Under the pieces are notes generated by a model that saw only the letters and a list, made by a program, of their open reading frames with translations, was not told the DNA's origin and searched no databases. The position numbers and the translations under genes are program-made. A DNA stretch of 22,818 bases from a virus: positions 1-22,818 of the IMG/VR virus record IMGVR_UViG_3300049491_000107; one strand, written 5' to 3'. Below, one piece after another: positions 1,157 to 22,818 of the stretch (positions are counted from its first letter, which is position 1; every line of letters starts with the position of its first letter).

Positions 1157-3679
1157 TCAGTATTCGAAGCAAACGGCCCAGGCGGTACAGTCGCCCGTGG
1201 CAAGCGTGTATTCGCAATTCCAAGTGTCGGCGGCCGTCGGATACGATCGGTACAAGTTGAGCGCGACCGTGTTGTCGCAACCCCCGCCCGTCGCAACCTG
1301 GCCGCCCGGGCATACCGCGGCGCATGACGCGGAGCTCGTCGACGTATTGCTCACCCGTGAATGACCGTGAGGCACGTTGCCGCCGTTGCCGCCGGCGTCG
1401 TTGATCTTGGCCGATCCGTTGACGTCAAGCCGCACGGTTGGCGACCCCGTTCCTATGCCGAGATTCTTTGAGACAACGACGTCGCCGGTCGCGCCCTTCA
1501 CGACGAGGCTATCCTCCTGATACGACCCGCCGGAGTCGAAGCGAGCAACCCCCCATTGATCGCCGAGCGTCGTATTCATGCCCATCGCCCATCGGCCAAC
1601 GCCGCTTTTTTTGTACCAAACGCCGCCAAAGTCGCCGGTCGTGTCGGCCGAGAAGAACGGATTGGAGCTCTTGATTTCAAGCTGCTCGCTCGGCGCCGTC
1701 GTCCCGATCCCCATCGCACCGGTCGCCGTGATCGCGGTGGTAAAGCTCGACCCATCGACCTCGAGCTTGTTGGTTCCCGACGTCCGGTCGGTCGACCCGT
1801 CCGTCCCGCCGATCTTGAGGGAGTTTTTGAACCAGTTGTATTTGCCGTTGGCGTCGTGAAATCCCCATGAGTTTGTCGAGGGATCTCCGGCCAGGAATTT
1901 GGTCTTGTAAAGGTACAGGTTGTCGATCGTTGTCGTCGCGCCGACGTTTGCCGCAATGCTGAGAAACCCGGTCAGGTTGTCGATATGACCGGCGCCGGCG
2001 GGTAGGACGTGCGCGTTGAAAAACCCCGTAACGTTGTCGGCTGTCGCATTGGTCCCAAGCTGGAGCAGGTTGATCGCGCCGAGCGACGCCAGGCCGAGAC
2101 CAAAACCGCCGCTCGTGACGTCCGAGTTGTCGCCCAACGTCACGCTCATGATCGGGCCGAAGCCAAAGTGGTCGTCGTTGGCGACGTCGACGTTGTTGGC
2201 GGTCGTAAAGTTGGTGTTGATCGTGTTGATTGGCGATGGGTTGCCGCCGTTGTCGACGAGCGGGAATTCAGTACCGGCGTTGATCCTGCCTAGGTTGACG
2301 CGGTAACCTCCCGAGTCGAATGCAATTATGTTGTCGGCGGCGTATCCGGATATCTGGCCGGCGCCGACGCTGATCGCCTTGTATGACCCGTCGCCGCCGC
2401 CGCCAGTAATGACGGTTGAGGAAAAGCCTGAGTCGCCAGGATCCGACCGTCCCGACCTGCCGGCCGTGTCCTCGGTGATCGTGACAACGCCGGCGTCGTC
2501 ATCGGTTGCCGACAGGTGAGCGACCCCGTCGACCGCGTCCTGGGTCGCGTCGCCAACCGATGCGGCCGGGTCGTCGGTCTCGATGTCGATCTCGACGAGG
2601 GTTGATCCTGGCGAGCTCGGCGCCGACCCCGAACCACTGACCTTGTACCAAAAGGCATAGCAAACGTTTGGGTTGTTGGCGTACGCAGAGCATTTCCGGA
2701 AGTACTTGCCAGCCAAGTCGCCGCCGACGTCGGCCCTGACCGTGAGCTCCTCGACCTGCGCCGTCAACCCGCGTTGAGTGATTTGCTGCGTTACGACCAG
2801 GCCGTAGGCGTCGCCAGGTACGCTCGACTTGTTGTTGAGACTGATCCCTTTGAGGTCACCGGAAACCAGCGTCGTCGCCTCGTTTGAATCGCTGTAACCC
2901 GTGTACCCGTCGCGGAGCTCGTTTACCTTTTTATGCAGGTTGAACGGCAACCAACTCCTCTCGACCAGGTCGACCTCATTGCCGCTGTCGACGAGCGCCA
3001 GGTTGTTCCTGATCGTGTCGCCGTGAATGTTGTCATTGAGCATGGTCGAGGCGCTTAGGGTCGTGAAGCCTGAATTTTCATTGACCGCCGCGTACAGCGT
3101 GTTTTGTTCCTGAGTCCCGAGGGTTCCGAATATGTTGAGGACGTTGAGGCTCGGAAATGTCCCGAGGTTTGGCGCGACGTTGAGGACGCCGTTGTTGCCC
3201 TCGAGCGTGGTCACTGTCGGCGCGGCGTTGATCACGACGAGGTTGTCCCTGGTCGCAAAGGAATCGGTATCGGTGATCGGTAGGTCGACGGACGGAGCGA
3301 CCCAAGTCAAAGCCCCGGCGCCGTCGGACGTGAGGACGTCTCCGTCGTTGCCGTCGTCACCGGGAAAGGTGTAAGCGACTCCGGCGATCGTCACGACGTT
3401 GGGATAGGTAAGCCGCAGAATCTCGGTGCAGTTGGCGCGGAAGGCGAGGACGCCGTCGCCGGGGCTCTCCATTCCCGAGTCGTCGTCGCCCGGGCTTGAG
3501 AAGGTAATGCCGGCAACGTTTGACGAGCAATTGATCTCGCCGCCCTTGGCGCGGACCCCGCCGTTGACAAGGACCCCGACCTGAGGCGTGAGTTGGTCGA
3601 AGTGTCCGATCCGATCCTCGGCCGCGGCGACGCCGGTATGCAGGCATAGCAGGGCGATTGCGAGATGCTTATATGTCAT
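1157..3679 (-). CDS. tail-fibre-like adhesin with N-terminal signal peptide, 840 aa
   Basis: This is a long, Gly/Ser/Asn/Asp-rich, beta-structured protein with fibre hallmarks. A 'GDVLTSDGAGALTWV' type motif lies near the N-terminus. Two 'GIGT..P...L.V/I' repeats in the C-terminal quarter (nt about 1710 and 1445) are typical of tail fibres and related trimeric surface proteins. The last ~60 residues form a compact six-cysteine module ending in AVCFEY. Unusually, residues 1-20 look like a Sec signal peptide: a Lys, a hydrophobic core (LAIALLCL), then VAAA before Glu-Asp. The start overlaps the 147-aa gene by 11 bases and has GAGG eight bases upstream. It is the last gene of the leftward operon. 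A receptor-binding or host-surface role is inferred. A secreted phage-encoded adhesin is the alternative. Confidence 0.75.
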   Translation of the reverse strand: MTYKHLAIALLCLHTGVAAAEDRIGHFDQLTPQVGVLVNGGVRAKGGEINCSSNVAGITFSSPGDDDSGMESPGDGVLAFRANCTEILRLTYPNVVTIAGVAYTFPGDDGNDGDVLTSDGAGALTWVAPSVDLPITDTDSFATRDNLVVINAAPTVTTLEGNNGVLNVAPNLGTFPSLNVLNIFGTLGTQEQNTLYAAVNENSGFTTLSASTMLNDNIHGDTIRNNLALVDSGNEVDLVERSWLPFNLHKKVNELRDGYTGYSDSNEATTLVSGDLKGISLNNKSSVPGDAYGLVVTQQITQRGLTAQVEELTVRADVGGDLAGKYFRKCSAYANNPNVCYAFWYKVSGSGSAPSSPGSTLVEIDIETDDPAASVGDATQDAVDGVAHLSATDDDAGVVTITEDTAGRSGRSDPGDSGFSSTVITGGGGDGSYKAISVGAGQISGYAADNIIAFDSGGYRVNLGRINAGTEFPLVDNGGNPSPINTINTNFTTANNVDVANDDHFGFGPIMSVTLGDNSDVTSGGFGLGLASLGAINLLQLGTNATADNVTGFFNAHVLPAGAGHIDNLTGFLSIAANVGATTTIDNLYLYKTKFLAGDPSTNSWGFHDANGKYNWFKNSLKIGGTDGSTDRTSGTNKLEVDGSSFTTAITATGAMGIGTTAPSEQLEIKSSNPFFSADTTGDFGGVWYKKSGVGRWAMGMNTTLGDQWGVARFDSGGSYQEDSLVVKGATGDVVVSKNLGIGTGSPTVRLDVNGSAKINDAGGNGGNVPHGHSRVSNTSTSSASCAAVCPGGQVATGGGCDNTVALNLYRSYPTAADTWNCEYTLATGDCTAWAVCFEY

Positions 3680-5707: not shown

Positions 5708-7144
5708 TTGACCGAGTTTGACTATGCGCTCGCCGAGCGGAGCTTTTCGCATTTCTACCGCGCGGCCTGGTCGGTCCTCGAGCCGACGACCGAGCTCAAA
5801 TGGAATTGGCATATCGAGTGTATCGCCGAGTACCTCGAGGCCGTCGACCGCGGTCAGATCAAGCGGCTCATAATCAACATGCCGCCGCGCAATTCCAAGT
5901 CGATGACCGTCACCGTCATGTTTCCCGCTTGGTGTTGGATCCGCCGCGCGAGCCGTCGCTTTATCAACGTGTCGTACAGCGAGAGCCTGGCCGTCAAGCA
6001 CAACGTCGACCGCCGTCTCCTGATCAACTCGCCGTGGTACCAGGCGGCATGGGGCGATCGTTTCAGTTTCAGCCCGGACCAAAACCTCAAGAGCGAATAT
6101 ACCAACGACAAGCGCGGCCATTGCGTCGCGGCCGGCATGCTCGGCACGATCACGGGTAAGGGCGGCGACGTGATCATATGCGACGACCCGCACAACCCGC
6201 AAAAGGCGGAGTCCGACGTCGAGCGCGAAAAGACCGTCGACACGTTTGACTCGACGCTCACGACACGGCTCGACGACAAAAAGACCGGCGCCATGATCCT
6301 GGTCATGCAACGCTTGCACGAGCGGGACCTCACGGGTCACCTTCTGAAAAAGGGAGGATGGGAGCACCTTTGCCTCCCGGCCGAGGCGCCGACCAGGTCG
6401 GTCATCACGTTCCCGATCAGCGGTAAAGAAGTCGTCCGCGAGGAGGGCGAGATCCTTCACCCCGAGCGCGAGGGCCCGGTCGAGCTCGCGGCGCAAAAGG
6501 TCGCGCTCGGATCGTACGGGTACGCCGGCCAGTACGACCAAAACCCCGCGCCTCGCGCCGGCGGCCTGTTCAAGCGCAGTTACTGGCGGTACTACGTCAC
6601 CTTGCCCGAGCGCATCGACATTTGGATCCAGTCTTGGGACATGGCCTTTAAGGACAAGGCAACGAGCGACTACGTTGTCGGCCTGGTCATGGCTCGCGCC
6701 GGCGCCTCGATTTACGTTGTTGACATGGTCATGGACAAGCTCGGTTTCAGTAAGTCGAAAGACGCGATCCGGTCGCTCTCGCAGAAATGGCCAAGGGCTT
6801 TGCTCAAGGTTGTCGAGGACAAAGCCAACGGGACGGGGATCGTCGACGACCTCAAGAGTGAGATCGCTGGCCTTGTGTTACAAAACCCCGAGGGATCGAA
6901 ATGGGAGCGCGCGAGTCGCTGCGAGCCCATGCTCGAGGCCGGCAACGTTTACCTCCCGACGCCGGAAACCTGCGCAAAGATTATGGTCGACGGTAAGCCC
7001 AAGACGATCACCGACGCGATCATGGACCAATGCGCCGTGTTCCCGAACGGCGCCAACGACGACATTGTCGACGCCTTGACACAAGGCTTGGATCGCTTGC
7101 GGCCCAAGGTCCACGACCGCACCAAGGCCTTAGGCGTGCTTTGA
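5708..7144 (+). CDS. terL: terminase large subunit (ATPase and nuclease)
   Basis: This is the motor ATPase and headful/cos nuclease that pumps DNA into the prohead. Residues 59-65 (PPRNSKS) are the variant Walker A found in large terminases. Residues 155-160 (VIICDD) are Walker B with its catalytic acidic residue. Residues 197-210 (ILVMQRLHERDLTG) form the coupling motif. The C-terminal nuclease of RNase H fold shows Asp311 (SWDMAF), the Glu370-Asp371 pair (VVEDKANG) and Asp451/452 (NDDIVDAL). At 478 aa it is of normal length. The start is uncertain: the first usable codon is TTG at 5708 with no good Shine-Dalgarno, and the frame stays open back to 5558 inside the small subunit gene. ATA at 5651 is the only other near-start codon. 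Confidence 0.93.
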   Translation: MTEFDYALAERSFSHFYRAAWSVLEPTTELKWNWHIECIAEYLEAVDRGQIKRLIINMPPRNSKSMTVTVMFPAWCWIRRASRRFINVSYSESLAVKHNVDRRLLINSPWYQAAWGDRFSFSPDQNLKSEYTNDKRGHCVAAGMLGTITGKGGDVIICDDPHNPQKAESDVEREKTVDTFDSTLTTRLDDKKTGAMILVMQRLHERDLTGHLLKKGGWEHLCLPAEAPTRSVITFPISGKEVVREEGEILHPEREGPVELAAQKVALGSYGYAGQYDQNPAPRAGGLFKRSYWRYYVTLPERIDIWIQSWDMAFKDKATSDYVVGLVMARAGASIYVVDMVMDKLGFSKSKDAIRSLSQKWPRALLKVVEDKANGTGIVDDLKSEIAGLVLQNPEGSKWERASRCEPMLEAGNVYLPTPETCAKIMVDGKPKTITDAIMDQCAVFPNGANDDIVDALTQGLDRLRPKVHDRTKALGVL

Positions 7145-7172
7145 GATCGACGCGGAGCTCGGTTACAGTTAA

Positions 7173-7187
7173 TAATACGACTCACTA
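7173..7187 (+). promoter_or_regulatory. exact match to the T7 RNA polymerase promoter core (-17 to -3)
   Basis: The 71-base gap between the large terminase and portal genes contains TAATACGACTCACTA, identical to positions -17 to -3 of the T7 consensus promoter. This includes the GACTC specificity block. After it the sequence departs from consensus, with GTC instead of TAG at -2 to +1 and no GGG at the start site. An exact 15-base match in a 22.8-kb GC-rich window is very unlikely by chance. The element lies 29 bases before the portal start and just upstream of its GAGG. Function is unproven, and no T7-type polymerase gene is in this window. Confidence 0.5.
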
Positions 7188-7215
7188 GTCAACCGAAAAT
7201 CCCGAGGCCAAAGGC

Positions 7216-8817
7216 ATGAGCGAGAAGGCAAAGCCCTCCGCGGTTGCGTCGTTTATTAAACGAATTGCGCACGCCGACGGTTGGAAAAACATTGCTACGG
7301 GCCTAGGCCTGGCCGCCAAAGACAAGCGCATGAGCGCCTCGGTCGAGTACTCGCGCATGAGCGAGTCCGAGGTCGAGGACCTTTACGCCGCCGACGACGT
7401 CGCCGCGACCATGGTCGACACGCTCCCCGAGGACGCGCTCCGCCAATGGGTTGCCTTTCAGGGTTTTGAGCCGGACCAGGCCCGCGCCGTCGAGAATGAG
7501 CTCGACGCTCTCGGCCTCCCGCAGCGACTCGACCTCGCATGGAAATGGGCCCGCATGTACGGCGGGTCGGCGATCTTTATCAACGTCGACGACGGCCGTT
7601 TCCTCGACCAGCCGCTCGAGCCAGGCCTCGTGCGCTCGGTCCGGAGCCTGGTCGTTTTCTCGCGGTATGAGCTCCAGCCGCGCGAGATCGACACCGACAT
7701 AAATAGTCGGACGTACGGCCGGCCGCTCCAGTACATGTTCACGCCGCGCCGCGCCGACACGAGCGGCAACGGGACCATGATCCACCATACGCGCCTCATG
7801 CGGTTTGACGGCGCCAAGCTCCCGCTCCGCCAGGAAATGGCCAACAATTATTGGGGCGAGTCGATCCTCGGCCGCGCTTTCAACGCGATCAGAAATTACA
7901 ACGTGTCGCACGACGCCGCGGCGACGATCCTCCAGGAATTCAACCAAGGCATTTTCAAGATCAAAAACCTCGCCGACCTGCTCATGGGCGGCGACGAGGG
8001 CGAGAAGGCCGTACAAAATCGCCTCGAGACCGTGCAACTCTCGCGGTCCGTTTGCCGCGCCGTCGTGATCGACCGCGATGAGGAATTCCAAAACATGGCG
8101 GCGAGCGTGACGGGCATTCCCGAAATGCTGGCCAAGGTCGGGCAACGGCTCGTCGTCGCGTCCAAGATGCCTCATACCAAGATCCTCGGCGAGAGCCCGA
8201 GCGGGCTTGGCGCGACCGGCGACAGCGAGCAAGGCAACTGGTACGACCACGTCCAGGCGCAGCAAGAGCAGGTCCTCCGGCCCAAGATCTCTTACGTCGT
8301 CACGCTGCTCTTGCGCTCGAGGCAAGGCCCGACGAGCGGCAAGGTCCCGCCAAACTGGACCTTTGAGTTCAACCCGCTCGAGCAAGAGTCGGAAGGCGAG
8401 CAGGTCAAAAACCGCAACACCCAAGCGCAAACCGACGAGATCTATATCCGTAACGGCGTTGTCGATCCGGACGAGGTCGCCGCGTCGCGCTTTGGCTCCG
8501 GTAAATACTCCTTTGAAACGACGATCGACAACGAGGCGCGCGACACCGCGACGACCCCGGAGATCGGCGGCAAACCCGGGACCGCGGCGAGCGGCCTCGA
8601 GAATGTCCAAACGCAGGCGCTCAACGGCGCGCAGGTCGCAAGCCTGCTCGAGACCGTCGGCCAGGCCGCTCGAGGCGACATACCTCGCGACGCCGCCGTC
8701 GAGATCATAATCGCCGCGTACCAAGTCGATCGCGCCACGGCCGAGCGCATGCTCGGATCCGCGGCATTTACCCCAACGCCTCCGCCGGCTAAACCGCTTG
8801 CCGGAGGCGCGACCTAA
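7216..8817 (+). CDS. portal protein (DUF1073 type)
   Basis: This protein would form the dodecameric ring at the capsid vertex through which DNA enters and leaves. At 533 aa it fits the DUF1073 portal family. Supporting blocks are 'WARMYGGSAIFINVDDG' near residues 111-127, 'YWGESILGRAFNAIRNY' around 214-231, and the family signature 'PHTKILGESPSGLGATGDS' near 319-338, followed by the WYDHVQAQQE helix. The C-terminal ~100 residues are Ala/Glu-rich and end with a proline-rich tail. The start ATG has GAGG eight bases upstream. The gene follows the large terminase after a gap with a T7-promoter-like element and precedes the MuF gene, the usual order. Confidence 0.88.
   Translation: MSEKAKPSAVASFIKRIAHADGWKNIATGLGLAAKDKRMSASVEYSRMSESEVEDLYAADDVAATMVDTLPEDALRQWVAFQGFEPDQARAVENELDALGLPQRLDLAWKWARMYGGSAIFINVDDGRFLDQPLEPGLVRSVRSLVVFSRYELQPREIDTDINSRTYGRPLQYMFTPRRADTSGNGTMIHHTRLMRFDGAKLPLRQEMANNYWGESILGRAFNAIRNYNVSHDAAATILQEFNQGIFKIKNLADLLMGGDEGEKAVQNRLETVQLSRSVCRAVVIDRDEEFQNMAASVTGIPEMLAKVGQRLVVASKMPHTKILGESPSGLGATGDSEQGNWYDHVQAQQEQVLRPKISYVVTLLLRSRQGPTSGKVPPNWTFEFNPLEQESEGEQVKNRNTQAQTDEIYIRNGVVDPDEVAASRFGSGKYSFETTIDNEARDTATTPEIGGKPGTAASGLENVQTQALNGAQVASLLETVGQAARGDIPRDAAVEIIIAAYQVDRATAERMLGSAAFTPTPPPAKPLAGGAT
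8777..8809 (+). other. hairpin over the portal gene end and the ribosome binding site of the next gene
   Basis: CGCCTCCG (8777-8784) and CGGAGGCG (8802-8809) form a perfect 8-bp inverted repeat with a 17-base loop. The 3' arm contains GGAGG (8803-8807), the only good Shine-Dalgarno ahead of the MuF start at 8823, although the spacing is long (15 bases). The stem lies in the last codons of the portal gene, so ribosomes finishing portal translation would melt it. This arrangement would couple MuF synthesis to portal synthesis. No T-run follows, so it is unlikely to be a terminator. Confidence 0.4.
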
Positions 8818-10951: not shown

Positions 10952-11719
10952 ATGTCTCAGTTGATTTACTCCCAAAGCATGGCCCTAGCGCGCGCGGGCA
11001 TGGTCGCCGACAACGGCGATAAGCATGTCGCGTCCAAGGTCAACCCCGTCGTCGCGATCCCGTTCGGCCTGGCCGTATGCCTTGGCGTCGATCCGGACCG
11101 TGACGTCAAACTCCCGACGTCGGCCGCCGAGGCCGCCGCGGCTTGCGGCGTCGCGCTCGTCGACACGATCGAATGCTCGGCCTCCGGTGACCCGCAATAC
11201 CCGATCGGCTCGGCCGTCGCGGTCCTGCGCAAAGGCCGGGTTTGGGTCAAGGTCCTCGAGGCCGTGACCGCTGGCGACGACGTTTACGTCCGGTACGCCG
11301 ACGGTATCAACGATACCAACGACGACCAAAAAGGCGCCTTCGGCAAGTCCAAGGACGGCACGGCGCAGGTGACGACCGTCACCCCGACCGCCGTCAACTC
11401 GACGCTCTATTACATGACGATCAACGGCATGTACTTCGAGTACACGTCGGACGGCTCGGCGACTGCCGGCGAGATCGCCGCGGCATTCGTCGCCCTGATC
11501 AACGCGCAAGACACGCTCCCCGTGACCGCCTCCGGCACCGTGACCGTGATCTTGACCGCTGACGTCGCGGGCACGTCTTTCGAGGTCGACGTCGGCGCCA
11601 ACCTGGCGGCCGTCGCGACGACCCCCAACGCCGGCGCTGCGGCGAAATGGGAAAGAGCCAAGTACCTGACCTCGGCCGCGGCCGACGGCCTGGCAATGCT
11701 CGAAGTCAACATGCCGTAA
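10952..11719 (+). CDS. capsid decoration/cement protein with inserted beta domain, 255 aa
   Basis: Residues 1-136 resemble small phage head-decoration (DUF2190-like or structural-cement) proteins: an N-terminal 'MSQLIYSQSMALARAGMVAD', a 'KVNPVVAIPFGLAV' strand and a block 'GSAVAVLRKGRVWVKV', as expected for a trimeric beta-tulip protein on the shell. Residues 138-228 form a distinct Thr/Ala/Gly-rich module that is closely similar to residues 89-178 of the tail sheath in this window. The last 25 residues return to the decoration fold. AGGAG lies seven bases before the ATG. Its position directly before the major capsid gene supports the call, though the family name is moderately certain. Confidence 0.7.
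   Translation: MSQLIYSQSMALARAGMVADNGDKHVASKVNPVVAIPFGLAVCLGVDPDRDVKLPTSAAEAAAACGVALVDTIECSASGDPQYPIGSAVAVLRKGRVWVKVLEAVTAGDDVYVRYADGINDTNDDQKGAFGKSKDGTAQVTTVTPTAVNSTLYYMTINGMYFEYTSDGSATAGEIAAAFVALINAQDTLPVTASGTVTVILTADVAGTSFEVDVGANLAAVATTPNAGAAAKWERAKYLTSAAADGLAMLEVNMP
11363..11635 (+). repeat. copy 1 of a ~90-residue domain shared with the tail sheath
   Basis: This codes for residues 138-228 of the decoration protein. The pattern is V.TVTPTA.N...Y..TIN...F..TSDGSATA.EI...., then ALINA, P, VTASGT.T.ILTAD.AG.SF.V..G.NL..V......G. By hand alignment about 54 of 91 positions equal the copy at 15314-15583. The codons differ at many third positions, so the copies have diverged for some time. Confidence 0.85.
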
Positions 11720-11802
11720 GGCAGGCAAGCTCAAACGGACCCGCTCAACCCAATACGCGCGCCCATAAAAACAACGAGGCAAAGCCTCCGGAGGATCCTA
11801 GA

Positions 11803-12726
11803 ATGTCCCGCAAGTTTATCAACATGGACGCTGACGAAAGCGTCTTCTTCAGTCGCCAACTCGAGCACGTCAAGGCCGCAACCTATGACGTCCAATACCC
11901 CGAGCTCAAGGCTCGCCAATTCATTCCCGTTTCGTCCGAGGCCGGCCCCGGCGCCGACACGATCACGTACCGCCAGTACGACATGCTCGGTTTCGCCAAG
12001 ATCATTTCCAACTACGCTCTCGACCTCCCGCGCGTCGACCTGAAAGGCAAAGAGTTTACCGCGAAAATCCGGTCGATCGGCGCCGGGTACGGCTACTCGA
12101 TGCAAGATATCCGTCGCGCGAAAATTACGGGCATGCCGCTCGAGCAACGTAAAGCTACGGCCGCCAAAAAGGCGATCGAGCAGTTGGTCGACGAGCTTGC
12201 TTGCAACGGCGACGCGGACCACGGCCTCGTCGGCCTGTTCGGTCACCCCAACATTCCTGACGTCGCGATCCCTGCCGACGGCACCGGCGCCTCGGCGCTT
12301 TGGTCCGCCAAGACCGCTGACCAAATCCTCCGCGACATGAATCTTTTGGTCACCGAGATCGTCGTCAACACGCACGAGGTCGAGGCACCGACCACGATGT
12401 TGGTCCCGCTCTTTCACTTCAACCTGATCTCGACGCTCCGCGTCGGCGACACGGGCTTGACCGTGAAAGAACTCTTCCTCAAAAACTCCCCGTACATCAA
12501 GGAAATCCTGCCCTGGAACAAGCTCAAAGGAGCCGGCGCCGGCGGCACCGATCTTTTCATGGCGTACAACAAGAGCCCGGACAAGCTGACCCTCGAGATC
12601 CCGCAAGATTTCGAGCAATTCCCGGTCCAGGAAAAAGGCCTCGAGTATGAGGTGAACTGCCATGCCCGCATCGGCGGCGTCCTCGTCTACTACCCGCTGT
12701 CTCTCGCCAAAGGCGACGGGATCTAA
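11803..12726 (+). CDS. major capsid protein (DUF2184 type)
   Basis: This is the shell-forming subunit, 307 aa. The sequence fits the DUF2184 major capsid family: 'MSRKFINMDADESVFFSRQL', the block 'TYRQYDMLGFAKIISNYA' near residues 60-77, 'GAGYGYSMQDIRRA' near 94-107 (start of the spine-helix region), and a C-terminal 'YEVNCHARIGGVLVYYPLS' that matches the family's closing strand. The ATG at 11803 is chosen because GGAGGA (11790-11795) lies seven bases upstream. The frame is open further upstream only through the end of the decoration gene. A strong terminator follows at 12744-12782, as expected for a very highly expressed gene. No N-terminal cleavage site can be read with certainty. Confidence 0.88.
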   Translation: MSRKFINMDADESVFFSRQLEHVKAATYDVQYPELKARQFIPVSSEAGPGADTITYRQYDMLGFAKIISNYALDLPRVDLKGKEFTAKIRSIGAGYGYSMQDIRRAKITGMPLEQRKATAAKKAIEQLVDELACNGDADHGLVGLFGHPNIPDVAIPADGTGASALWSAKTADQILRDMNLLVTEIVVNTHEVEAPTTMLVPLFHFNLISTLRVGDTGLTVKELFLKNSPYIKEILPWNKLKGAGAGGTDLFMAYNKSPDKLTLEIPQDFEQFPVQEKGLEYEVNCHARIGGVLVYYPLSLAKGDGI

Positions 12727-12743
12727 CAGCGTCATCCGGTTTT

Positions 12744-12782
12744 GTGAGGCGTCCGGACAATCAAAACGCCTCGCCATTTTTT
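12744..12782 (+). terminator. rho-independent terminator after the capsid gene
   Basis: GTGAGGCGT (12744-12752) pairs with ACGCCTCGC (12766-12774) in a 9-bp stem containing one G-U pair, with a 13-base loop. CA and six T's (12777-12782) follow. It starts 18 bases after the capsid stop. This is the best intrinsic terminator in the window and should cut or reduce transcription between capsid and neck genes. Confidence 0.8.
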
Positions 12783-12816
12783 CGACCCAACGCGATCCAA
12801 AAGGGAAACCCAAACG

Positions 12817-13230
12817 ATGCAAAACAAAATCCTGGTCAAGTACAACAGGCTAAACATTTTCACTTTCGGGGAATCGAAACTGATCCCTGGGATCAACAAG
12901 GTCGATCCGAAGGCCTGGGAGGACGGGCTCAAGCTGTACCCGCGCCTTGCCCATTTCGTCGAGGACGGCACGATCGAGACGCTCAACAAGTCCGGCGTCA
13001 CGCGCGACGACAGCGAGGCGGCCAACACCAAAGGCGCGCTCACGGTCGACGACATTACCAAGCTCAACGACAAGCGAGCGATCAAGCTCGTCAAGGATAC
13101 GGCCGACATTGACCTCCTCACCCTTTGGAGCGAGATCGAAAAACGTAAGCCCGTGCTCGCCGCAATCGACGCCCAATTCGAGGCGATCGCCAAAGCGGCC
13201 GAGCCGATCCAGGCGGACGCGACCAAATGA
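12817..13230 (+). CDS. hypothetical protein between capsid and neck genes, 137 aa
   Basis: This is a soluble 137-aa protein without a family I can name. The N-terminal ~50 residues are mixed ('FTFGESKLIPGINKVDPKAW', then 'GLKLYPRLAHFVEDGTIE'). The middle holds a Thr/Asp-rich linker and the C-terminal half is helical and charged (KAIKLVKDTADIDLL-like and EIEKRKPVLAAIDAQFEAI). Proteins of similar size and shape are often found just after the capsid gene in contractile phages. The ATG has AAGGGA upstream at slightly long spacing. The stop overlaps the next start (ATGA at 13227-13230), so it is co-translated with the neck gene. A virion role is only inferred. Confidence 0.7.
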   Translation: MQNKILVKYNRLNIFTFGESKLIPGINKVDPKAWEDGLKLYPRLAHFVEDGTIETLNKSGVTRDDSEAANTKGALTVDDITKLNDKRAIKLVKDTADIDLLTLWSEIEKRKPVLAAIDAQFEAIAKAAEPIQADATK

Positions 13231-13577
13231 CCGTCAACAAGGCATACCTGATCATTCGATACCCCGAGTTTGCGACGACCGACGCAACCCGGATCGACAC
13301 GTTGGCGGCCGACGCGGCCCTCGAAATGTCGGTGTCCAAGTGGGGATCCAAGTACGACCGCGGCCTCGCGGCGCTCGTCGCCCATATGATCAAGGTCGCC
13401 GACCAGGCCGCCAGCGGCGCGGCCGGTCCCGTCACCTCGGAAAAGATCGGCGACCTCTCTCGGTCGTACGGTCAGGTCGGCGGCACGACGGGCGACGAGC
13501 TCCTCATGACGACGGCGTACGGGCAAGAGTACCTAAGGCTCCGGCGGCAACTGGTCGCCGGGCCGCGCGTAACGTAA
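13227..13577 (+). CDS. DUF4054 head-tail connector protein
   Basis: At 116 aa this matches the DUF4054 type of neck/adaptor protein, which is thought to sit under the portal ring. It begins with the family's 'F/Y.R.YPEFA' start (LIIRYPEFATTDATRID), has a central 'ALVAHMIKVADQ' helix and ends with 'SYGQVGGTTGDELLMTTAYG...YLRLRRQ', the small-residue-rich loop followed by the 'T.YG..Y..L' motif of the family. It starts in an ATGA overlap with the previous gene and is followed after seven bases by the HK97 gp10-like gene, the usual neck order. Confidence 0.8.
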   Translation: MTVNKAYLIIRYPEFATTDATRIDTLAADAALEMSVSKWGSKYDRGLAALVAHMIKVADQAASGAAGPVTSEKIGDLSRSYGQVGGTTGDELLMTTAYGQEYLRLRRQLVAGPRVT

Positions 13578-13584
13578 GGGCACA

Positions 13585-14130
13585 ATGGCAGGCACGGCGA
13601 AAACAACTGAGATCGACCGCGGCGAGAAAGAGATCCGCCGTCGTATCGCCGAGCTCGCCAAGACGCCCGGCGGTCCTTACGTCAAGGCGGGGATCCTCGC
13701 CGACGCCGGCGCGCACAAGGACGCCGACGGGCTCACCGTCGCCGAGATCGCCATTTTCAACGAGTTTGGTACGCCGACGATCCCCGAGCGGGGTTTCATG
13801 CGGGCCGCCGCGGTCGAGCTCACGCCGATCATGAAGGCCCTCGGCGCGCGCATGCTCTCGGCGTATATCTCGGGCAAGCTGACCCTCGACCAGGCGCTCG
13901 ACACGATGGGCCTCAAGGCCGTCGCCGTGATCAAGCGCACGATCCGCGACTGGGAGGACCCGCCCAACGCACCGTCGACGATCCGAGCCAAGGCGCGCAA
14001 GACCGGCCGCGCCAAGCTCGCAAAGGCCAAGTCCAAGGGCGGCGAGGCCGAGCTCCTCTCTCAGTACAACAACCCGCTCGAGGATACCGGGCAACTCCGT
14101 AACTCCGTCCAACACGAGAAGGTCAAATAA
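13585..14130 (+). CDS. neck / tail-completion protein (HK97 gp10-like)
   Basis: At 181 aa, it shows the pattern typical of HK97 gp10-like and related virion-morphogenesis proteins: a strand 'YVKAGILADAG' (residues 33-43), then 'TVAEIAIFNEFGTPTIPERGFMR' in the middle, with the conserved EFG...IP.R.FMR block. A helical region and a basic linker (APSTIRAKARKTGRAKLAKAK) follow. The end 'LEDTGQLRNSVQHEKVK' matches the family's closing 'L.DTG.LR.SI'. It probably acts in joining head and tail. Its stop overlaps the next start (TAATG). Confidence 0.8.
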   Translation: MAGTAKTTEIDRGEKEIRRRIAELAKTPGGPYVKAGILADAGAHKDADGLTVAEIAIFNEFGTPTIPERGFMRAAAVELTPIMKALGARMLSAYISGKLTLDQALDTMGLKAVAVIKRTIRDWEDPPNAPSTIRAKARKTGRAKLAKAKSKGGEAELLSQYNNPLEDTGQLRNSVQHEKVK

Positions 14131-14492
14131 TGGCCAACTCGCTGATCAACAAATACGGAGAGCCAATCACGATCCTCCGGCCGGCAACCGGCGCTTACGT
14201 CGACGGCGTCTTTGTCCCTGGCGGCGCGCCGGCGTCGTCGACCGCGACCGCTTGCGTCATGCCTCTCAGCGAGGAGGACATTGCGCTTTTGCCCGAGGGT
14301 CAGGAGGACAAGGACGGGATCGTCGTTTACACCGAGACCGAGCTCAAGAGCGGGGGCGAGGTCAGTCAAACGACGCCCGACCTGATCGAGTGGGACGGCA
14401 AGACTTGGCAGGTCATGCAAAGCAAATACCGCTCCCAGATCCCGAGCCTTGCCCATTGGAAGGTGATCGCGCTACTGGAGGACGTCGGCTAA
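14130..14492 (+). CDS. head-closure / stopper-like neck protein
   Basis: This 120-aa beta-rich protein begins 'NKYGEPITILRPATGAYVDG' and later has 'GIVVYTETELKSGG', 'DLIEWDGKTWQVMQSKY' and 'HWKVIALLEDV'. That series of short strands is typical of small head-tail joining proteins (SPP1 gp16/lambda FII type) that plug the portal after packaging. It is translationally coupled to the gp10-like gene by TAATG, and the tail-terminator-like gene starts directly after its stop. The function is inferred mainly from position and fold pattern. Confidence 0.65.
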   Translation: MANSLINKYGEPITILRPATGAYVDGVFVPGGAPASSTATACVMPLSEEDIALLPEGQEDKDGIVVYTETELKSGGEVSQTTPDLIEWDGKTWQVMQSKYRSQIPSLAHWKVIALLEDVG

Positions 14493-15029
14493 ATGGACAT
14501 GACCGCCGTCAAAAAAGCAATTTACGACTGGGTTGTCCTGGCTCTCTCGACCCCGACGCCGCCGCCCATTTATTGGGGCGACCAAAACGCGCCGCGTCCC
14601 GACAACCCGTCGGTCCGTCTCAAATTCATTGCCGGACCCAACATGGTTGGGCTCGACGAGATCCGCGACGTCGAGGGCGACCCCGACCTTTTCGCGATAG
14701 TCGGCCCGCGCACGTTCCTCCTCTCGGTCACCGGCCAGGGCGACACGGCGATCAACCTCGTCTCGCAACTCCAGACGAGCGTGAGCGATCCGTCCAAGGT
14801 CGCCAAGCTCGGCGAGGACGGCGTGTCGATCCTGTCGATCGGGACCTCGCGCGACGTGACCCAACTCATGGAAACGAAATACGAGACGCGGCACCAAGTC
14901 GACGTCAACCTGCTCGTCACCGAATACGTCGAGACCGAGCTCGGCGTGATCGAGGACCTCGAGCTCGGCTCAACTTTGGAAACCCCCGCCGGCGACGAGA
15001 TCGACGGCGGATTTACGACGACAGATTAA
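14493..15029 (+). CDS. neck/tail terminator protein (gp12-like)
   Basis: This 178-aa protein is similar in outline to the phage neck terminator gp12-like family. It has an N-terminal helix 'AVKKAIYDWVVLAL', an early 'PPIYWGDQNAPRP....VRLKF' segment, and the block 'METKYETRHQVDVNLLVTEYV' followed by 'GVIEDLELGSTLE' near the C-terminus, which is the diagnostic part. It would cap the tail tube and sheath where they meet the head. The ATG immediately follows the previous stop. The sheath gene begins 20 bases later with a strong GGAGGA. Confidence 0.75.
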   Translation: MDMTAVKKAIYDWVVLALSTPTPPPIYWGDQNAPRPDNPSVRLKFIAGPNMVGLDEIRDVEGDPDLFAIVGPRTFLLSVTGQGDTAINLVSQLQTSVSDPSKVAKLGEDGVSILSIGTSRDVTQLMETKYETRHQVDVNLLVTEYVETELGVIEDLELGSTLETPAGDEIDGGFTTTD

Positions 15030-15049
15030 CGGCGCCTTAGGAGGACTCC

Positions 15050-16348
15050 ATGTCATTGAATGATGTTGTAAACCTGCAAATTTCCCGGAGCGCCGCGGCC
15101 GTGTCGCGTCAAGGCTTTGGGACCATGCTGATCCTCGGGACGACGATCACGACCGAATGGGGGGCCGACAGGATCCGGTCGTACACGTCCGCGGCCGCGC
15201 TGCTCGAGGACGGATTTGCCACGTCCGACGCCGAGTACAAAGCGGCGCTCGTCGCCTTCTCGCAGGACCTCAAGCCGACCCGCGTCAAGGTCGGTCGTCG
15301 CCTGACCCCGGTCGCGCAGGTGATCACCGTCACGCCGACGGCGGCCAACACGTACATTTACTCGGTCACGATCAACGACACGGAATTCTCTTTCACGTCC
15401 GACGGCTCCGCCACGGCCGCGGAGATCGTCACGGGCTTGATCGCCCTGATCAACGCCGGCTCGGAGCCGGTCACGGCAAGCGGTACGTCGACGCTGATCC
15501 TCACGGCCGACGAGGCCGGCGTCAGTTTCACCGTGACCCTCGGCGGCAACCTGTCAAAGGTGACGTCCGTCGCCAACGTCGGGATCGCGACCGACCTGGC
15601 CGAAGTCTCGGAAGAGGATGACGACTGGTACGCGCTCGTCTCGACCTCGCGTGACCCCGACGTGATCATGGAGGCGGCCGCCTATATCGAGTCCGTCCGC
15701 AAAATCTATATCGCCTGCTCGGGAGACGCCGGCGTGATCGCCGCGGGGTCGACCGACGTCGCCTCGTTGCTCAAGGCGAAAGCGTACGCGCGCACGGCGT
15801 ACCTTTACTCGGGTAACCAGGCGGCCATGCCCGAGGCCGCTTGGCTCGGCGGCAACCTGCCCGATGACCCGGGATCCGCAACGTACAAATTCAAGACGCT
15901 TACCGGCGTCACGGCCGACGACCTCACGTCGACCCAATACACGGTCGCCAAGGCAAAGAATGCCAACATTTACACGACCGTTGGCGGCGCCGGCATGACC
16001 GAAGAGGGGGTCATGGCCGAGGGCGAATTCATCGACGTCATCATTGGGATCGACTGGCTCCATAGCAACATGCAAGCCGACGTGTTCCAGGTCCTCCGCG
16101 ATCAACCGAAAGTCCCGTACACCGACGCCGGCGTCGCGACGATCGAGACCGCGGTCCGCAACCGCCTGCGCCTGGCCGTCCTGGCCAACGTGCTGGCCGA
16201 GGATCCGGCTCCGGTCGTGACCGTGCCTAAGGTCGCCGACGTCGCGCCGTCGGACAAGGCCGCGCGCCTCCTCAAGGACGTGACCTTTACGGCAACCCTC
16301 GCCGGCGCCGTCCATGCCGTCGAGATCACTGGCAACGTGTCGGTCTAA
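15050..16348 (+). CDS. tail sheath protein (DUF3383 type)
   Basis: This is the contractile sheath subunit, 432 aa. The N-terminus 'MSLNDVVNLQISRSAAAVSR...GFGTMLILG' and the C-terminal part, with 'AKNANIYTTVGGAGMTEEG', 'DVIIGIDWLHSNMQADVFQ' and an arm-like end, fit the DUF3383 sheath family. Conserved residues of the sheath core run from about 1-88 and 180-432. Between them, residues 89-178 hold the module also found in the decoration protein. GGAGG lies five bases before the ATG. The tail tube gene follows. This gene defines the phage as contractile-tailed. Confidence 0.85.
   Translation: MSLNDVVNLQISRSAAAVSRQGFGTMLILGTTITTEWGADRIRSYTSAAALLEDGFATSDAEYKAALVAFSQDLKPTRVKVGRRLTPVAQVITVTPTAANTYIYSVTINDTEFSFTSDGSATAAEIVTGLIALINAGSEPVTASGTSTLILTADEAGVSFTVTLGGNLSKVTSVANVGIATDLAEVSEEDDDWYALVSTSRDPDVIMEAAAYIESVRKIYIACSGDAGVIAAGSTDVASLLKAKAYARTAYLYSGNQAAMPEAAWLGGNLPDDPGSATYKFKTLTGVTADDLTSTQYTVAKAKNANIYTTVGGAGMTEEGVMAEGEFIDVIIGIDWLHSNMQADVFQVLRDQPKVPYTDAGVATIETAVRNRLRLAVLANVLAEDPAPVVTVPKVADVAPSDKAARLLKDVTFTATLAGAVHAVEITGNVSV
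15314..15583 (+). repeat. copy 2 of the shared ~90-residue domain
   Basis: This codes for residues 89-178 of the tail sheath. It shares TVTPTA, TIN, TSDGSATA, ALINA, PVTASGT, LTAD and GNL with the decoration protein at 11363-11635. It has one residue fewer, at a single gap before PVTASGT. Confidence 0.85.
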
Positions 16349-16840: not shown

Positions 16841-17341
16841 ATGAAAAACGTCACCGCAAAGACGATCGACGACCGGGAGTATGAGTTTTACCCGCTCGCG
16901 CCAAAGCAGGCGACCATGATCCTGGTCCGCCTGTCGCGGATCGTGCTCGAGCCTCTCGGCTTTGTCGGCGACGCGCTCGCCGGCGCCAAGGGAAAGCCCG
17001 ACCTCGAGGGCGAGGCCAAGCCGGCCGGCGTGCTCGACATGAAATTTGGTAAGGACCTCCCGGCCGATATGTTTGCCAAGGCCGCCAAGGCCCTGGTCAG
17101 TCGGCTCGACGAGGACCAGGTATGGACGACGATCGAGCAGGTCCTCGCCAACGTCATGGTCAAAACGGCCGCCGACGCGGGGTCGCGCAAGATCTCAATG
17201 ACGGTCGATTTTCAGGGACGTACCGGGCATATGCTCAAGGTTTTCGTCGCGGCGCTCGAGGTCAATTACGCCGATTTTTTCGGCGGCGAGGGCGGAGGGC
17301 TCTCCGCTCTGATCGACAAAGCGAGGAGCGGGTTGACCTAG
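16841..17341 (+). CDS. tail assembly chaperone, short form (gpG-like), 166 aa
   Basis: This is the unshifted product of the tail-assembly chaperone locus. It is a mostly helical protein with a Lys/Glu/Gly-rich central linker (about residues 47-66) and the C-terminal stretch 'GHMLKVFVAALEVNYADFF'. The small gene between tube and tape measure is the standard place for this chaperone, which coats the tape measure before tube polymerisation. A slippery T TTT TTC at 17275-17281 and a stem 7 bases later allow a -1 shift before its TAG at 17339-17341. The ATG at 16841 follows the tube stop by 27 bases. Confidence 0.8.
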   Translation: MKNVTAKTIDDREYEFYPLAPKQATMILVRLSRIVLEPLGFVGDALAGAKGKPDLEGEAKPAGVLDMKFGKDLPADMFAKAAKALVSRLDEDQVWTTIEQVLANVMVKTAADAGSRKISMTVDFQGRTGHMLKVFVAALEVNYADFFGGEGGGLSALIDKARSGLT

Positions 17342-17499
17342 GGAATGTCGACTGGTTTTTCTGGCGGCCAATCTTACGCGGAGTCACGACGCTCGAGGAG
17401 ATCGAAAGACATTGGTCACTCAACGACCTGCTCGACGCGCACGAGGCCCTTGACGTCCAAGACGAATTCGACGATCTCGCAAGAAGGAAACCAGGCTAA
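16841..17499 (+). CDS. tail assembly chaperone, frameshifted long form (gpGT-like), about 219 aa
   Basis: If ribosomes slip -1 at T TTT TTC (17275-17281), translation leaves the short frame after Phe147 and continues in the frame that ends with TAA at 17497-17499, adding 72 residues. That added segment has no start of its own. Its last ~50 residues are clearly protein-like: 'DWFFWRPILRGVTTLEEIE' followed by 'HWSLNDLLDAHEALDVQDEF'. This is the usual composition of the T part of gpGT-type fusions in many tailed phages. Its stop overlaps the tape-measure start (TAATG). The mechanism is established in lambda and Mu-like phages. Here it is predicted from sequence. Confidence 0.8.
17275..17310 (+). 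promoter_or_regulatory. -1 programmed ribosomal frameshift signal
   Basis: The slippery heptamer T TTT TTC (17275-17281) is exactly in the zero frame (codons GAT, TTT, TTC). Seven bases separate it from a 9-bp stem, AGGGCGGAG (17289-17297) with CTCCGCTCT (17302-17310), containing one G-U pair and a GGCT tetraloop. Slippery site, spacer and stem are all within the known ranges for bacterial -1 frameshifting. Confidence 0.82.
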
Positions 17500-22086: not shown

Positions 22087-22442
22087 CCGACCTCAAGCTC
22101 GACGACGACGGGGACCTCGCGCTCGAGGGCAACTCGTTGGTCCTGATCTCCGGCGGGGACGAGGTCGCGCAACGGCTCCTCAACCGCCTCCGCCTTTGGC
22201 GCGGGGAATGGTTCCTCAACCTCAACCGCGGGACGCCGTACCGCGAGGAAATCTTTGTCAAACGTACGGCCTTGTCGCGGATCGAGTCGGCGATCAAGCG
22301 CGAGATCCTGACGACCTCCGGCGTGCTCGAGCTCCTCGAGTATACCCAGGATCTCGATATCGCGACGCGCAGGCTCACGGTAAGCTTTAAAGCAAAAGCA
22401 ACCGACGGGACAATTGTAGAATTCAACGAGGTATTGCCGTGA
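22083..22442 (+). CDS. baseplate wedge protein, gp25-like (GPW/gp25)
   Basis: This is a lysozyme-like wedge protein of the T4 gp25/P2 gpW family, 119 aa, that connects baseplate and sheath. Characteristic are 'GDEVAQRLLNRLRLWRGEWFLN' with the W.GEWFLN block, 'RGTPYREEIF' (the 'D...G.PY.E.I' motif) and 'ESAIKREILTTSGVLELLEY' in the core, then 'RRLTVSFKAKATDG'. It starts in an ATGA overlap with the preceding gene and is followed by the J-like gene overlapping as GTGA. The last 60 bases use AT-rich codons (GCA, GTA, ACA, ATT, AAA), a change from the rest. Confidence 0.83.
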   Translation: MTDLKLDDDGDLALEGNSLVLISGGDEVAQRLLNRLRLWRGEWFLNLNRGTPYREEIFVKRTALSRIESAIKREILTTSGVLELLEYTQDLDIATRRLTVSFKAKATDGTIVEFNEVLP

Positions 22443-22818
22443 CCTATGGCGTAACGACCGCGGGCTTTGTCACCAAACGCCTGGCCGACGTAAAGGACGA
22501 GCTCGAGGCCGACCTCAAGAGCGTGTTCGGCGACGGCGTCAACCTTTCCGAGGAAAGCCCGCTCGGCCAACTCGTCGGCATTCTTTCCGAGCGCGAGGCG
22601 GCGCTTTGGGAGCTCGCCGAGGGGGTTTACAATTCGCAGTACCCGGACACGGCGGAGGGGGTCAACCTCGACAACGCCGTCGCCCTGACCGGGATCACGC
22701 GCCAGGCCGCGACCTTTTCCAAGGTCCTCGGCGTCGAGCTCACGGGCGACCCCGCAACCGTGATCCCGGCCGGCTCGGTCCTCTCGGTCGCCGGCAACGT
22801 GGACGCGCGCTTTGCGCT
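22439..22818 (+). CDS. baseplate J-like protein, N-terminal part (runs off window end)
   Basis: The start GTG at 22439 overlaps the gp25-like stop (GTGA), and the frame is open to the window end, giving the first 126 residues. The pattern 'TTAGFVTKRLADVKDELEAD', 'NLSEESPLGQLVGILSEREA', 'ALWELAEGVYNSQYP', then 'AEGVNLDNAVALTGI.R..A' and 'VIPAGSVLSVAG' is typical of the baseplate J-like (wedge) family in contractile phages. It is the outer wedge component that contacts fibres. The remainder of the protein and any following fibre genes lie beyond the window. Confidence 0.85.
   Translation, partial: MTYGVTTAGFVTKRLADVKDELEADLKSVFGDGVNLSEESPLGQLVGILSEREAALWELAEGVYNSQYPDTAEGVNLDNAVALTGITRQAATFSKVLGVELTGDPATVIPAGSVLSVAGNVDARFA

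Follow-up and report, generated by a model that had tools for sequence, protein, structure and literature searches.

A sheath extension domain inserted in the capsid cement protein of a contractile-tailed phage and recurring in exterior virion proteins of its relatives

The window, meaning the whole stretch of DNA analysed in this work, covers the 22,818 bases of an IMG/VR virus record and encodes head and tail proteins of a phage with a contractile tail. Terminase, portal, cement, major capsid, connector, terminator, sheath, tube, chaperone and tape measure genes are present, together with Dit-like, hub and spike genes and the 5' part of a baseplate J gene. The capsid cement (decoration) gene, on the plus strand, encodes the N-terminal part of the cement core (residues 1–137; 10952–11362), an inserted domain (residues 138–230; 11363–11641) and the C-terminal strands of the core (AKWERAKYLTSAAADGLAMLEVNMP; 11642–11716), which resume past the insert. 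The core was assigned through PF22758, phrog_563 and 8hdt_G, with the profile match in two pieces flanking the insert. The gene lies directly upstream of the major capsid gene (11764–12723, plus strand; Pfam Major_capside, E = 2e-67), as membership of the cement family requires. The head-closure protein (14130–14489, plus strand; phrog_939) and the tail terminator (14493–15026, plus strand; PF23961) are both without the domain in the window. The tail sheath gene, also on the plus strand, begins with the N-terminal part of the sheath body (residues 1–88; 15050–15313; DUF3383 PF11863, phrog_205), followed by the sheath extension domain, the second copy of the shared domain (residues 89–181; 15314–15592; AlphaFold), and the body and handshake part (15593–16345), assigned by profile and by AlphaFold and Foldseek. 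The baseplate J-like wedge gene (22439–22818, plus strand) is cut by the contig end; profile positions 2–122 are matched, and the contig stops about 20 profile positions short of the site at which the domain of relatives starts, from about residue 145.

Two other reading frames of the window were observed. The tail assembly chaperone gene (16841–17496, plus strand; PF21822) has a 51-aa reading frame directly past its stop, perhaps a frameshift extension. On the strand opposite to the head and tail genes, positions 1160–3679 (minus strand) encode an 840-aa protein with a signal-like start, fibre-like GIGTTAPSEQLEI repeats and no Pfam match.

A preliminary description of this DNA had counted 54 identities in 91 positions between a segment of the decoration protein and one of the sheath, and held the remainder of the two proteins to be unrelated. 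Both points were borne out, as were the segment boundaries. BLASTP of the whole proteins aligned cement residues 131–230 with sheath residues 82–180 at 56 of 100 identities (E = 2e-27), with noise-level similarity only beyond the shared segment. By MAFFT the two segments are 60% identical (55 of 92 aligned pairs) with one gap of a single residue. A search of the window with the cement copy matched itself and the sheath segment alone (E = 4.6e-25), so that no third copy was found there. At fourfold sites, 15 of 36 are equal between the copies against 16.3 expected from codon usage. Synonymous sites are thus saturated and the split between the cement and sheath copies is old; a recent duplication was rejected on this ground.

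To compare the folds, AlphaFold models of both proteins were used. The cement copy was predicted with strands at residues 140–145, 152–157 and 160–165, a helix at 172–184, and strands at 191–194, 199–203, 212–214 and 218–223; the sheath copy with strands at 91–96, 103–108 and 111–116, a helix at 123–136, and strands at 141–144, 149–153, 162–164 and 168–174. The order of elements, three strands, a helix and four strands, is therefore common to both, and the different folds that would have spoken against a shared domain did not appear. Confidence is high for the sheath copy (pLDDT mostly above 90) and for the cement copy (pLDDT about 97 over residues 140–210). The insert is thus well predicted beside a cement core that is itself modelled poorly (overall pLDDT 64), from which it follows that it folds on its own; its exposure has to be taken from the protein family.

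In Foldseek, the best match of the cement segment was the A-1(L) sheath (1.6 Å over 94 columns, probability 1.00), followed by the Pam3 cement, through the core, and then by the Mu, Milano, 7-7-1 and PhiTE sheaths and the Bas63 baseplate wedges. The sheath model matched the Bas63 (E = 3e-35), Sf14, PhiTE and XM1 sheaths, and the window protein is a sheath by profile as well (phrog_205 over residues 1–430, E = 7.7e-107; DUF3383 PF11863, E = 1.5e-35). A beta-sandwich with one helix lying inside the sheath body, which defines the sheath extension domain, is predicted in the window sheath, and the same fold is predicted in the cement copy. On these models the shared segment is the sheath extension domain, a beta-sandwich that folds by itself and includes a single helix, and the proposal of one homologous, independently folding domain inside both proteins agrees with BLASTP, AlphaFold and Foldseek alike. 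The segment falls under no curated domain of Pfam or NCBIfam. The domain consensus scored 15.9 bits against Big_2 (cut-off 22.8) and 18.4 bits against Flagellin_IN PF07196 (cut-off 22.7), placing it outside both families; at E values up to 0.1, Big_2 matched 9 of 61 domain members (best 1.1e-4) and Flagellin_IN two of 61. The cement model also matched flagellin 9atl (E = 0.03) and FliD 5h5w (E = 0.29), both weak scores.

The domain has been described in sheaths under several names: the external sheath extension domain, or SED, of Milano gp20 (PMC10811340), the InD of the XM1 gp6 sheath, linked by Dali to FliD D3 (PMC10457771), domain III of the Mu gp39 sheath (PMC11915804) and the additional domain of 'type 2' sheaths (PMC9230969). 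All four occupy the same N-terminal place in the sheath body and have the same fold as the window segment. The preliminary description had taken the segment to be an insert in both proteins. This holds for the cement, where it is a true insert, whereas the sheath segment is the usual extension domain of most DUF3383-type sheaths; hence only the cement holds real novelty. The Pam3 sheath (384 aa) matches the window sheath from residue 180 onward alone.

To determine which other proteins carry the domain, 67 loci were fetched by a sheath-alignment scan and the domain was found in them with an iterated profile, copies being accepted at 17.9 bits or more; reversed and shuffled ORFs never exceeded 10 bits. 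The fetch words, [TY][LI]YSVTIN and [IV]N[GA]G[SA]EPV, come from the domain itself and inflate both the apparent conservation of GSEPV and the share of domain-bearing sheaths, while inserts in non-sheath proteins and empty sites are independent of this bias. Sheath alignments worked for the scan; single-protein scans with the cement or the bare domain gave no matches, as exact words are needed, nor did tblastn of the consensus domain against phages, probably through low-complexity masking.

The profile gave 111 matches, redundancy included, spread across five virion protein classes: sheath, cement, head closure (phrog_939), tail terminator (PF23961) and baseplate J (PF04865, phrog_6). Where the preliminary description saw two carriers and suggested a search with the domain alone, at least five carrier proteins thus exist across related phages. 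Among non-redundant homologues the domain is carried by 12 of 30 cements, 5 of 49 head-closure proteins and 8 of 55 terminators, and among about 70 fetched loci by about 11 baseplate J proteins; the domain region is missing from the J proteins of L061, L065, L067 and L072. It was absent from the tube (0/58), tape measure (0/49), chaperone (0/54), Dit-like (0/46), hub (0/42), spike (0/38), wedge 1 (0/32), neck 1 (0/45), major capsid (0/28) and portal (0/15) proteins. When 45 IMG/VR contigs were searched as whole records, the listed copies, second copies in G043 and G016 left aside, agreed with the five gene classes. Among cultured phages, Vibrio phages eugene 12A10 and 424E50-1 and Pseudomonas phage vB_PsaM_M1 carry the domain in sheath and baseplate wedge; none with a copy in the cement turned up. 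The core folding residues are the same across all five carrier proteins. The domain is confined to five virion proteins, at fixed sites that occur with and without it. The sheath of L055 (7923–9536, plus strand) contains two tandem extension domains (residues 106–185 and 191–271). A related sheath was also seen in L108, whose contig had been assigned to a Nanoarchaeota MAG and is probably a viral contig binned in error.

The insertion sites are clearest in the cement. The window decoration core belongs to Phage_cement (PF22758, E = 3e-21, 76.5 bits against a cut-off of 27), the family of E217 gp24 and Pam3 gp6, and matches the Pam3 cement 8hdt_G by sequence and by fold; the Pam3 protein is insert-free at 166 aa, in contrast to the window cement. 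Cement homologues of 160–170 aa are without the domain, and the AKWERAKYLTSAAADGLAMLEVNMP-type ending of the window cement recurs in such insert-free proteins, while in carrier cements the cement profile splits into two pieces on either side of the domain. By alignment, the window and L042 inserts occupy the same late loop, and the L111–L114 cements, 77–80% identical to the L042 cement, are insert-free at this point (EIGAFRNDAD^TASCDQ, with the caret at the site). A second, early loop is occupied by the domain in at least nine cements of other phages. From these alignments, the cement domain was genuinely inserted, and at a fixed loop. In the window cement copy the GSEP part of the commonest loop has been lost and the sequence reads AQDTLP.

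Further arrangements were observed among the cements. Those of L005, L007, L015, L016, L030 and L037 have early-loop inserts of about 100 aa that the domain profile missed and that are perhaps distant relatives; in single hhalign comparisons with the domain, the L030 insert gave an E of 3.5e-5 and that of L005 0.19. Tandem cement genes occur in L007 (1425–2198 and 1975–2691, plus strand), one with a different early-loop insert, and three in L066 (3316–4809, plus strand). The L110 cement (6001–7422, plus strand; 474 aa) has three N-terminal halves of the domain at the late site (TPT at 142, 181 and 220), followed by three C-terminal halves (TLxLTGQ at 285, 349 and 413). The equal number and the order of the halves suggest nested copies, one domain inside a second that itself lies inside a third, with the interruption at the loop that precedes the helix. 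Alternatively, the two halves may have been amplified separately.

It might be argued that each segment belongs integrally to the core of its protein, or that an Ala/Thr-rich beta sequence arose twice by chance convergence, and both the composition of the segments and the sporadic Big_2 and Flagellin_IN matches would suit such an origin. An E value of 2e-27 across 100 residues, the failure of every shuffled or reversed ORF to pass 10 bits, the equal fold order in both segments and the empty insertion sites in relatives render it scarcely credible, and both forms of the argument were ruled out.

The relationships between the copies were examined by similarity and on a domain tree of 79 columns with many weak forks. 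The own sheath ranked first of 54 sheath copies for the window cement copy, the L016 J copy and the L037 and L038 terminator copies, and the mean within-record similarity across proteins exceeded that of shuffles (p = 0.0066). Carrier protein changes on the tree number at least 14, against a shuffled mean of 34. Sheath copies are paraphyletic, with well-supported branches forcing at least three changes for the sheath, and the other copies group by carrier, with head closure as one clade and the cement early loop as nearly one. Several independent insertion events have therefore occurred. The likeliest direction is from a sheath-type domain to the cement, and the window cement copy stands beside the sheath on the tree, in a poorly supported placement. 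A duplication within the structural operon, as had been suggested, is plausible given that the own sheath is the best of 54, but it would have to be old, as the saturated synonymous sites indicate. As the late loop of L042 is also occupied, the insertion may predate this phage. The window cement insertion may thus have taken place in its own line, have been inherited, or have been received by transfer from a related phage.

The reading preferred here, held with middling confidence, is that the extension domain was put into the cement and other exterior proteins and acts as an accessory display module making weak surface contacts. On this reading, the beta-tulip cement long ago took up a sheath-type copy at a late loop that is held to be exposed, its core staying intact, and transfers of the domain, for the most part out of sheath-like copies, have happened again and again, the recipients being loops of exterior virion proteins, namely two loops of the cement and loops of head closure, terminator and baseplate J. 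Copies on head and tail would face outward. The extension domain is external in the Milano sheath (PMC10811340), domain III of Mu reaches outward (PMC11915804), and cement is found on the capsid surface, where E217 gp24 forms trimers at the icosahedral and quasi threefold sites (PMC10329688). The domain would be dispensable for capsid assembly and contraction; the extension domain is reported to have no direct part in contraction (PMC12846349). By analogy with Ig-like domains, a hypothesis quoted in PMC9230969, it might offer the particle a large number of equal, weak points of contact with surfaces of the host or of the environment, which is a guess. The loss of GSEP in the window cement copy speaks against a single conserved ligand site. 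In baseplates the neighbouring wing domain contacts hub and fibres (PMC10966104), so that a structural role is possible for some copies.

Structural reinforcement, in which the domain pads or bridges subunits of sheath rings, capsomer joints, neck and wedges against pressure, drying or premature contraction, is doubtful, even though every carrier is a subunit of an ordered assembly at an exterior joint. The Milano sheath is held by a disulfide linking the SED to the sheath body (PMC10811340), the phage 812 sheath domain may stabilise the disk, as quoted in PMC9230969, and the A-1(L) wedge insertion domain touches hub and long tail fibre (PMC10966104). However, close relatives freely vary in the presence of the domain, the Pam3 sheath does without most of it, and interfaces would demand a different sequence in each protein, yet the core residues are shared by all five. 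Tandem copies, and possibly nested ones, are likewise easier to accommodate in a non-essential, outward module. A further reading is mostly neutral spread, in which a well-folding domain tolerated in loops is copied between structural genes by recombination and kept because it is harmless. This is unlikely: many independent placements, loss in close relatives, reuse of the same tolerant loops and the half-domain repeats of the L110 cement would be expected of it, but all five carriers have retained the folding residues while synonymous sites diverged to saturation, and the copies in head closure and in the early cement loop make up clades of long standing, indicating that they have been maintained. 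The present data do not separate display, reinforcement and neutral spread, which stand as candidates for test.

Recurrence of the fold was already known. The Adele paper noted that a lateral beta-sandwich recurs in sheath, podovirus nozzle, auxiliary capsid proteins, FliD and flagellin (PMC12846349). The window domain belongs to the same fold group: 8giu, 8i4m, 5h5w and flagellins match the cement model, with weak scores for the last ones. That observation is structural and made across viruses, whereas sequence-level kinship within one virion, empty sites and repeated insertions are described here. Promiscuous accessory domains on phage particles are also of a known kind. Ig-like domains, Hoc-type and others, are likewise small exterior accessory domains on heads and tails that are swapped between genes (cited in PMC9230969); the present domain differs in the helix between its third and fourth strands, in belonging to no curated Pfam Ig family and in being inserted into loops rather than attached at ends. 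The earlier descriptions under the four names given above concern the sheath; the window adds the cement copy, and relatives extend the range to baseplate J, terminator and head closure. A search mainly of the openly readable literature yielded no description of J, cement, terminator and head-closure proteins holding copies of the sheath domain that are recognisable by sequence.

The window and its relatives provide a case, visible in the sequence, of one small domain that has spread among the proteins making up one kind of virus particle, where occupied and vacant sites exist side by side. The domain profile accounts for many long 'hypothetical' versions of the carrier proteins, and the insertion loops show where cement, terminator, head-closure and wedge proteins can accept an extra domain. 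A virion-wide mobile domain, with a reservoir of extension domains copied into exterior loops, even into its own loop, and head and tail forming one coat, is put forward tentatively; if it is true, head and tail would offer the same surface to the environment. The case makes it testable whether accessory domains on phage particles are surface tools, padding or passengers.
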